A stretch of DNA of 64,000 nt from positions 1 to 64,000 of the forward strand of contig MEUA01000017.1 of NCBI GenBank assembly GCA_001771505.1. The letters are read 5' to 3'. The notes under the pieces were generated by a model. That model was not told the DNA's origin. It made no database searches and saw only the letters and a list, made by a program, of their open reading frames with translations. Shown here piece after piece: positions 4,143-60,152 of this stretch (its first letter is position 1; each line of letters opens with the position of its first letter). The position numbers were made by a program, and so were the translations under genes. The stretch is from a candidate division WOR-1 bacterium RIFOXYB2_FULL_36_35. Its GTDB lineage: Bacteria > Margulisbacteria > WOR-1 > XYC2-FULL-46-14 > XYC2-FULL-37-10.

Positions 4143-4228
4143 ACCCCGATTAGGAAATCGGGGTTCATACCTGGGGAAATTTCCAACACTCTGCTAGAAT
4201 TCTGTTCGTCTATGAATAATCGGGGTGA
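4142..4228. repeat. 88-bp composite repeat, copy 1 (palindrome plus promoter-like tail)
   Basis: A perfect-arm palindrome (4142-4165, AACCCCGATT...AATCGGGGTT) is followed by about 45 bp and a second half-arm TAATCGGGG at 4218. The whole unit matches 24568-24655 in order and spacing. The tail reads CTAGAAT...GTTCGTCTATGAATAATCGGGG, where the other copy has TATAAT. It lies between srkA and rpsO. Confidence 0.85.
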
Positions 4229-24567: not shown

Positions 24568-24655
24568 AACCCCGATTTCCTAATCGGGGTTCATACCTAC
24601 CAAAATTTCTAACATTCTGCTATAATTCTGTTCGTCTATGAATAATCGGGGTTAA
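24568..24655. repeat. 88-bp composite repeat, copy 2
   Basis: Palindrome at 24568-24591 (AACCCCGATT, spacer, AATCGGGGTT), then a tail with TGC-TATAAT (about 24619-24627), then GTCTATGAATAATCGGGGTTAA in substance to 24655. It matches the unit at 4142. This copy keeps an intact extended -10 box upstream of the gene at 24678. Confidence 0.85.
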
Positions 24656-26091: not shown

Positions 26092-26119
26092 TTAACCCCG
26101 ATTTCCTAATCGGGGTTAA
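26092..26119. repeat. Perfect CCCCGATT palindrome with TTAA at both ends
   Basis: TTAACCCCGATTTCC, then TAATCGGGGTTAA. It lies between the two tandem paralogues at 25594 and 26192. Confidence 0.85.
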
Positions 26120-26695: not shown

Positions 26696-26759
26696 ATGAC
26701 AACTCCTTTTTTAAAATTATACCACTTAAACCTTTATTGACAAAATATTTTTATAAAAA

Positions 26760-26903
26760 GGGTCTGTTGTGTAATGGTCATTCCCGTGAAAACGGGAATC
26801 TATTTCTCAAAAAACAACTCCGATTATAATAATCGGGGTTAAGATGGATCCCCGCTTTCGCGGGGATGACAAATTGCAAAAACTATAATTACGCAACAAG
26901 CCC
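26760..26903. mobile_element. GGGNYTGTTG-ended MITE, copy M1, carrying an inserted palindrome
   Basis: Imperfect 16-bp terminal inverted repeats: GGGTCTGTTGTGTAAT at 26760 and ATTACGCAACAAGCCC ending 26903, flanked by AAAAA on both sides (26755-26759 and 26904-26908). Inside are two hairpins, TTCCCGTGAAAACGGGAA and ATCCCCGCTTTCGCGGGGAT. Between them sits a 25-bp CCCCGATT-type palindrome (26816-26840) that is absent from the otherwise matching copy M2 at 59956. No transposase is encoded. Confidence 0.85.
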
Positions 26904-26991
26904 AAAAACTATACGCATATGTTGTTATAGAATATTCTCAACTTTCATTAGCTTGAAATTTTTATTGCTCTTTTAAGATAAATAGTTACTT

Positions 26992-32879: not shown

Positions 32880-32991
32880 AAGAATTTTTTGACAGTAGAA
32901 AACTTCTGCTGTTTGAGTCCCGAGATACTAAGCTATCGGGACGATTATCATAATCGGGGGTCAGAAGTTTTCGGATGGCGATAAGATTCTT
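32880..32991. repeat. Three-stem hairpin element, copy A
   Basis: Nested stems: AAGAAT (32880-32885) with ATTCTT (32986-32991); GAAAACTTCTG (32898-32908) with CAGAAGTTTTC (32962-32972); GTCCCGA (32917-32923) with TCGGGAC (32936-32942). The joining strands CTGTTTGA and GGATGGC are shared with copy B, while both outer stems differ in sequence yet still pair. Between 32943 and 32961 lies most of a CCCCGATT-type palindrome that copy B lacks. Strand of any transcript is unknown. It occupies most of the 385-bp gap between skp and the gene at 33177. Confidence 0.8.
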
Positions 32992-38896: not shown

Positions 38897-38996
38897 AAAA
38901 GTTTTTTTGGCAGGAGGAAAGTTCGTCTGTTTGAGTCCCGATAGCGAAGCTATCGGGACGAGTTACGAACTTTCCGGATGACAACAAAAACTTTTA
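38896..38996. repeat. Three-stem hairpin element, copy B
   Basis: Nested perfect stems: TAAAAGTTTTT (38896-38906) with AAAAACTTTTA (38986-38996), 11 bp; GGAAAGTTCGT (38916-38926) with ACGAACTTTCC (38965-38975), 11 bp; GTCCCGATAG (38935-38944) with CTATCGGGAC (38950-38959), 10 bp, with loop CGAAG. The joining strands CTGTTTGA and GGATGAC recur in copy A at 32880. The following bases to 39033 hold one more small hairpin (CGAGC-GTAA-GCTCG, 39016-39029). Confidence 0.85.
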
Positions 38997-39072
38997 TTGG
39001 ACAACCGAAATACCCCGAGCGTAAGCTCGATGTTGTTTATTTTGAAAAACTGACAAGTTGCTTTAAAGTTTA

Positions 39073-43358: not shown

Positions 43359-43446
43359 AGCCCCGATTATAATAATCGGGGTTAAGCTGGATCCCCGCTT
43401 TCGCGGGGATGACAAATTGCAAAAACTGTCATTACTCAACAGTCCC
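43359..43446. mobile_element. MITE right half fused to a palindrome, copy M3
   Basis: A palindrome (43359-43383) is followed by AAGCTGGATCCCCGC, the CGCGGGGAT hairpin, GACAAATTGCAAAAACTG and the end ATTACTCAACAGTCCC (to 43446). The left half with the TTCCCGTGAAAACGGGAA hairpin seen in M1 and M2 is missing. It fills the gap between the two sensor genes. Confidence 0.8.
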
Positions 43447-47322: not shown

Positions 47323-47411
47323 AACCCCGATTATTCACGCCAGAATCAATAATCAACAAATTGTCAAACATTTACTCGAGGGATGAATAATCGGGGTTAA
47401 TAATCGGGGTT
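47323..47411. repeat. 79-bp TTAA/CCCCGATTATTCA element plus an extra arm
   Basis: The left arm AACCCCGATTATTCA (47323) pairs with TGAATAATCGGGGTT (to 47398), enclosing about 48 bp. The interior is the reverse complement of the element at 57003. A further half arm, TAATCGGGGTTT, follows at 47401-47412. It lies in the promoter region of the flavin reductase-like gene. Confidence 0.85.
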
Positions 47412-49732: not shown

Positions 49733-49751
49733 CTTAAATAACTTCTATCTC

Positions 49752-49841
49752 GGGCTTGTTGTGTAATGACAGTTTTTGCAATTTGTCATCCCCGCGAAAG
49801 CGGGGATCCATCTTAACCCCGATTAGGATAATCGTGGTTAA
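49752..49841. mobile_element. MITE half fused to a palindrome, copy M4 (inverted)
   Basis: GGGCTTGTTGTGTAATGACAG begins at 49752 in substance, followed by the CCCCGCGAAAGCGGGG hairpin and then TTAACCCCGATTAGGATAATCGTGGTTAA (49813-49841). Its reverse complement has the same order as M3 at 43359, so the fused form exists twice. Confidence 0.8.
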
Positions 49842-57006: not shown

Positions 57007-57081
57007 CCCCGATTATTCATACCGTAAGTAATGTTTGACAATTTGTTGGTTATTGATTCTGGGGTGAATAATCGGGGTTAA
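57003..57081. mobile_element. 79-bp TTAA-bounded CCCCGATTATTCA element
   Basis: TTAA at both ends (57003-57006 and 57078-57081). Arms AACCCCGATTATTCA and TGAATAATCGGGGTT enclose a 45-bp interior that is the reverse complement of that at 47323. It supplies the birA stop codon. No coding capacity. Confidence 0.88.
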
Positions 57082-59935: not shown

Positions 59936-60152
59936 CTTCGATTATTTACGTCAGGGAACTGTTGCGTAATGGTCATTCCCGTGAAAACGGGAATCTATTT
60001 CTCAAAAAACAAGATGGATCCCCGCTTTCGCGGGGATGACAAATTGCAAAAACTATCATTACGCAACAAGGCCGTCAGGATCAATAACCAACAAATATTT
60101 ACTCGAGGTATTAACCCCGATTATCCTAATTGGAGTTTATAATCGGGGTTAA
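59933..60152. mobile_element. Composite: CCCCGATTATT element split by MITE M2, then a further palindrome
   Basis: The left piece 59933-59955 (TTAACTTCGATTATTTACGTCAGG in substance) and the right piece 60073-60110 (CGTCAGGATCAATAACC...ACTCGAGGTA) together match the interior of the elements at 47323 and 57003. MITE M2 lies between them. A palindrome bounded by TTAA follows at 60111-60152. Confidence 0.85.
59956..60072. mobile_element. GGGNYTGTTG-type MITE, copy M2, with 7-bp target duplication
   Basis: Perfect inner inverted repeats TGTTGCGTAATG (59960-59971) and CATTACGCAACA (60057-60068). CGTCAGG is duplicated on both sides (59949-59955 and 60073-60079). Interior: TTCCCGTGAAAACGGGAA hairpin, then the ATCCCCGCTTTCGCGGGGAT hairpin. 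It is 117 bp, equal to M1 less M1's inserted palindrome. Confidence 0.92.

Follow-up and report, generated by a model that had tools for sequence, protein, structure and literature searches.

Palindromes of 20–21 bp in a candidate division WOR-1 genome as probable minimal non-autonomous transposable elements

Introduction

The closest precedent for the palindrome described here, denoted P, is provided by the small dispersed repeats (SDRs) of Nostoc and related cyanobacteria (Elhai et al. 2008, Genome Res 18:1484, cited in PMC3116915), repeats of reportedly 21–27 nt that are said to have been proposed to move through RNA. As for P, the SDRs are present in high copy number, can form hairpins, are restricted to one lineage, are believed to be mobile, and occur nested in mini-transposons and in each other; P is likewise a repeat of 20–30 nt that is dispersed and found as nested insertions. 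The sequences are unrelated, and unlike the SDRs, P has a distinct target duplication of 4 bp and ends in common with a 71-bp MITE. These two features point to an enzyme that makes staggered cuts, and the direct 4-bp duplication does not require spread through RNA. A second point of reference is offered by piggyBac and the IS1380-type transposons, where a TTAA target is duplicated and the ends begin with CCC. P has the TTAA duplication and ends starting with CCC, but TTCA and TAAA are used as well, and the assembly contains no PF13701 protein.

Inverted ends, direct repeats arising from target duplication, AT-rich intergenic targets and presumed mobilisation in trans relate P to the prokaryotic MITEs (PMC10969869). 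This class spans 50–500 bp (PMC10969869), a range that accommodates the 71-bp element (L) and composites of 95–97 bp discussed below, but not P itself, which at 20–21 bp is smaller and lacks a known autonomous partner. The 39-bp copies of QMITE1 are shortened versions of a 400-bp element (PMC10969869). P, by contrast, is uniform, and its ends enclose hardly any sequence. REP and REPIN sequences with RAYT resemble P in being intergenic palindromes of 20–40 bp present in hundreds of copies (PMC3116915, PMC3733652). P differs in having TNNA flanks rather than a GTAG or CGTC tag at the hairpin foot, in showing a target duplication, and in that no intact Y1 (RAYT) gene is flanked by copies.

Results

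The DNA analysed here, referred to as the window, is a stretch of 64,000 nucleotides from candidate division WOR-1 bacterium RIFOXYB2_FULL_36_35, in which the motif CCCCGATT occurs 23 times against 1.5 expected. The genome is a 1.95-Mb assembly in 67 contigs; across it, AACCCCGATT is found 465 times, compared with 6 for the reversed control. A survey of 1.875 Mb (96%) gave 266 palindromes, among them 254 copies of P (CCCCGATT-N4/5-AATCGGGG) of exactly 20 bp (101 copies) or 21 bp (153 copies), where the reversed control pattern gives 30. All copies have terminal inverted repeats of 8–10 bases, and the centres are recurrent (AGGA, AGGAT and ATNAT), the first being exact in 50 copies and the second in 34. 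The family is confined to this genome, except for one copy in a relative: of 57 genomes searched, from its own up to phylum level, just one other has a copy, single and flanked by TTAA, and a 74-genome search of the phylum agrees. No comparable palindrome family was seen in the sampled relatives (192 kb of G002 and at most 20 kb of each other).

At individual sites, P behaves as an insertion with a duplicated target. The 20-bp copy at 26096–26115 in the window, with a TCCT/AGGA centre, stands alone and has TTAA on both sides. When sites near another arm copy and all repeated flanks were removed from the genome-wide set, 60 solitary sites with unique flanks remained. An exact 4-bp direct duplication is present at 38 of these, against a mean of 13.2 and a maximum of 26 in 10,000 shuffles, none of which reached 38; 51 of the 60 are within one mismatch of a duplication, and about a third lack an exact one. 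The identity of the two flanks is 0.80 at a length of four bases and about 0.4 at lengths of three and five, giving a sharp peak at four. The duplicated targets are TTAA, TTCA, TGAA, TAAA and TTTA. Among the non-palindromic ones, 23 duplications are direct (TTCA 14, TGAA 6, TAAA 2 and TTTA 1) and one is inverted, and the flanks are therefore not an extension of the palindrome. P thus has both terminal inverted repeats and a target-site duplication of fixed length (4 bp), as do MITEs. For 20-bp copies with an AGGA centre, the orientation relative to the non-palindromic targets at unique sites is strongly biased, with 11 cases of TTCA and one of TGAA (chance about 0.003, one-sided, calculated by hand). 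As the arms are symmetric, the loop or the strand seems to matter, and it is chiefly this bias that makes a hairpin intermediate worth considering.

When P is taken out together with four bases, the sequence at more than 40 sites aligns without gaps to empty copies. Each of these sites is in a repeat (L or the M family described below), so that these comparisons are made between repeats within one genome. In the clearest case, L199:13563 and L205:19744-19791 are identical at 48 of 48 positions and differ only by a 20-bp P and TGAA. One and the same position in L is occupied by palindromes of different types, AGGAT at L195:170 and ATCAT at L216:18888, which indicates separate insertions.

The original prediction had been that the palindrome is a mobile or spreading unit and not merely a terminator, to be examined by a genome-wide list of copies with flanks and paired empty sites. 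The mobile nature of P gains support from the duplications at unique sites, the empty sites in L, the placement of the copies and the scarcity of T-runs. Alternatively, P might be a conventional intrinsic terminator or regulatory hairpin, repeated because of its function. This would agree with its stable single-stranded fold (about −10 to −12 kcal/mol for DNA) and with the position of 215 of the 254 copies outside ORFs; the remaining 39 lie inside ORFs, although a simple ORF call counts 85% of the sequence as coding. Such a role also finds some support in a GTDB-wide scan of other genomes where, among the matches listed, the P sequence is scattered over unrelated taxa, mostly as single and apparently terminator-like copies. 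Most copies do not, however, show the terminator arrangement of a hairpin and T-run behind a gene. A T-run accompanies only 19 of 254 copies, P is found both upstream and downstream of genes, and its gene neighbours are tandem in 111 cases, divergent in 44 and convergent in 42, so that divergent placement is as common as convergent. The placement and the rarity of T-runs argue against a terminator as the main identity of P, and given also the target duplications and empty sites, we regard this explanation as very improbable.

The 71-bp L elements have the ends CCCCGATTATTCA...TGAATAATCGGGG, which are those of P, and are flanked by the same 4-bp duplication. This duplication is seen in 20 of 24 spans of 71 bp and in 21 of 28 spans of 95 bp, the latter being an L element with a 20-bp P and four further bases (95 = 71 + 20 + 4). 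In composites of 34, 53, 82 and 84 bp, an end of P is used as the outer end, which indicates that P and L ends are interchangeable, and probably P, L and the composites are served by one process. In the window, an L element at 57007–57077 has a TTAA duplication and represents an empty site for P insertions seen elsewhere, and an L-type element with CCCCGATTATTCA ends at 47325–47396 is flanked by TGAA and TTAA. Two 82-bp composites of a 20-bp P and a 71-bp element are located at 4144–4225, where the outer end of P is used and the duplication is TGAA, and at 24570–24651, with TTAA; a composite of 34 bp at 60115–60148, also with TTAA, consists of a degenerate 21-bp P and a 13-bp L end. A viral scan for the L end returned four matches that look like chance.

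Because P and the 71-bp elements have the same ends and target duplication, P could also be a scar. In that case a transposon longer than P, with CCCCGATT ends and a TNNA duplication of 4 bp, would have inserted at each site and later undergone imperfect excision or internal deletion, its two ends being left joined by a short filler. Comparable footprints are left by the P elements of Drosophila, and the 21-bp class with an ATNAT centre (CCCCGATTAT-N-ATAATCGGGG) may be what remains after an interior deletion in an L-like hairpin. The AGGA and AGGAT centres are, however, not present in L ends, and yet they recur exactly in 50 and 34 copies. Moreover, a spectrum of intermediate lengths is not observed, the 20-bp class has an almost constant orientation towards TTCA, an intact long element was not detected, and the motifs occur on few of the contig ends examined. 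A scar origin is accordingly considered unlikely. Full-length elements that span two distant P ends were also considered and dropped, the best long pairs being two separate copies of P.

The mobility of the palindrome was originally proposed from two M-type MITEs in the window, both on the plus strand. M1 (26760–26903, 144 bp) has terminal inverted repeats GGGTCTGTTGTGTAATG / ...ATTACGCAACAAGCCC and a 5-bp duplication, AAAAA, at 26755–26759 and 26904–26908, while M2 (59955–60073, 119 bp) is flanked by GTCAG at 59950–59954 and 60074–60078. Exactly as had been described, M1 equals M2 with 25 extra bases, AACTCCGATTATAATAATCGGGGTT, at 26816–26840 between AAAAAAC and AAGATGG, the two copies being otherwise collinear. 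These bases comprise a P of the 21-bp class with an ATAAT centre (CTCCGATTATAATAATCGGGG, 26818–26838), flanked by ACAA and TTAA, and four more. The M family as a whole has MITE ends GGGNCTGTTGC(G/A)TAATG and a 5-bp target duplication, and a BLAST search across genome stretches totalling 1.875 Mb (96% of the assembly) collected 50 copies with both halves, of which 16 bear the palindrome.

The comparison of these copies does not sustain the further claim that the M1/M2 difference is direct evidence of insertion. A single junction, ACAA-P-TTAA, is common to all 16 filled copies and does not amount to a clean duplication; independent insertions would each carry a clean duplication of their own. 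In a tree of 38 near-full copies, built after removal of the palindrome, filled and empty copies interleave (10 changes, compared with a mean of 11.7 for shuffled labels). Together, the common junction and the interleaved tree make one old insertion, followed by repeated loss or reshuffling, the better reading. We therefore think that within the M family the palindrome is probably ancestral, and that the empty copies, M2 included, arose through precise loss or gene conversion, so that no insertion event separates M1 from M2. In line with this, the empty copy at L185:6337 (E_L185_6337) agrees at every position outside P with three filled copies, the 25 bases missing from empty copies are exactly the complete perfect hairpin AACCCC...GGGGTT, and the preferred target of P is TTAA, with ACAA not among the exact duplications elsewhere. 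On the other hand, ACAA occupies the palindrome position in nearly all near-full empty copies, matching the left flank of the filled form, and a simple insertion at ACAA predicts the same; with many copies empty, an empty ancestor and later recombination are also possible. Loss from M2, with every other M copy filled, had been named as the outcome that would overturn the original prediction. The former is what we find probable, and the latter is contradicted by the many empty copies. The M1/M2 pair by itself does not prove that the palindrome is mobile. Ancestral presence in M concerns this pair only, and is compatible with P as a minimal transposable element.

A second case had been put forward in a hairpin copy A that carries the palindrome and a copy B that does not. 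The intact relatives of copy B indeed lack the palindrome, but copy A has only a partial P, with 18 of 21 bases (32942–32959), and no 4-bp duplication, and the case is compatible with insertion without being evidence for it.

Several other features of the M family were observed. In M1, two hairpins of the form ATTCCCNNNNNNNNGGGAAT / ATCCCCNNNNNNNNGGGGAT, at 26782–26801 and 26848–26867, resemble the dRS3 repeat of Neisseria. Isolated right-half copies of M, extending from about GATGGATCC to the GCCC end, number about 20 and lie mostly in unrelated DNA; among them are copies in L186, L217, L295 and L300 and two in the window (43388–43441 and 49751–49814). Left-half copies are few, and the right half may constitute a separate unit that is mobile or stable. 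A 21-bp P with an ATAAT centre at 43361–43381 is joined to a right-half copy, and one with an AGGAT centre and a single mismatch, at 49817–49837, is joined to the copy at 49751–49814. The idea that all right-half copies begin at the palindrome was abandoned, as a few do and most begin in unrelated DNA. Two M copies 5 kb apart, C63:21142 (L033) and C63:26230 (L054), are each nested in an L element of the same kind and at an identical position. Only one of them has the palindrome, and their left duplications differ, which suggests recombination or gene conversion between copies. At L288:4804 (minus strand), a left-half M copy holds at its palindrome site a truncated composite of L and P that terminates in TTAA and unrelated DNA, an apparent rearrangement through the palindrome.

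No mobiliser of P was found when Y1 and six DDE families were sought in the assembly; the latter (PF01609, PF13701, PF00665, PF13586, PF00872 and PF13358) gave no match, and a longer or autonomous element with the same extended ends as P was not seen in 96% of the assembly. Since short-read assemblies often lack multi-copy transposons, these absences hold for the assembly and not for the cell. Contig ends share repeats, but few of the ends examined bear the CCCCGATT motif, and the shared sequences indicate that some transposons are probably missing. The ends of C18, C25 and C64, and those of C19 and C35, have sequences such as ...ACAAATTTACACAACTTTCTTGACA in common and look like ends of unassembled multi-copy elements.

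The genome does contain one Y1 domain (G000:C41:23275-23640, L220), which together with the many small palindromes might point to P as a REP whose movement depends on a Y1 transposase of RAYT or IS200 type, and the orientation bias of the 20-bp class hints at a reading of the single-strand loop. This sole gene is IS200-like, has an in-frame stop and possesses different hairpins of its own, and the association with a REP-type TnpA that had been envisaged for the palindrome is not borne out by it. P has target duplications, which a Y1 transposase would not be expected to generate. Mobilisation of this kind appears improbable. The left hairpin of the Y1 unit is of CCCCGAGCGTAAGCTCGAGG type, and a matching left-end remnant is located in the window at about 38985–39015, beside hairpin copy B.

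Discussion

Based on the exact lengths, the direct 4-bp duplication at unique sites, the gapless empty sites and the ends shared with L, we consider it likely that P is a minimal non-autonomous transposable element, i.e., a minimal MITE composed of two ends and a 4–5-base loop that is moved in trans. In the mechanism that we propose, a unit with two inverted ends of 8–10 bases and this loop would insert at TNNA sites (TTAA, TTCA/TGAA and TAAA/TTTA) and duplicate four bases. From this duplication we infer that one enzyme, making 4-base staggered cuts, would move P, L and the composites in trans; it may have been lost, left out of the assembly, or be of a kind outside the families searched. In the M family, one old insertion of P would have become part of the MITE, and the palindrome would now be repeatedly lost as the exact 25-base hairpin, or swapped by recombination between copies. 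The M1/M2 difference would then be a display of this polymorphism.

Several points count against P as an element. The searches described above gave no mobiliser or autonomous partner, the empty sites all belong to repeats of one genome, and about a third of the unique sites are without an exact duplication, although 51 of 60 come within one mismatch. An element of 20 bp is also hard to reconcile with ordinary paired-end transposition. A duplex of this length probably cannot bend round to form a paired-end complex, so that P may instead be active as a hairpin or as two cooperating copies. The orientation bias of the 20-bp class (11 TTCA and one TGAA) raises the more specific possibility that DNA of 20 bp without an interior transposes and duplicates 4 bp, that the strand or loop (AGGA as opposed to TCCT) is read at insertion, and that the mobile form is a hairpin and not a looped duplex with two bound ends. 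This proposal is tentative, and we would sooner expect it to fail than to hold.

The M copies illustrate that the exact presence or absence of a palindrome inside a MITE is, taken alone, no proof of insertion. To our knowledge, a testable target-duplication signature such as that of P is missing from known very small repeats. If the interpretation of P as a minimal element is true, P would be one of the smallest mobile DNAs known, and two abutting ends would mark the lower bound in size for transposition. The size series of 20/21, 34, 53, 71, 82 and 95–97 bp would then constitute a natural set for determining the minimal transposable length and the enzyme able to move it.
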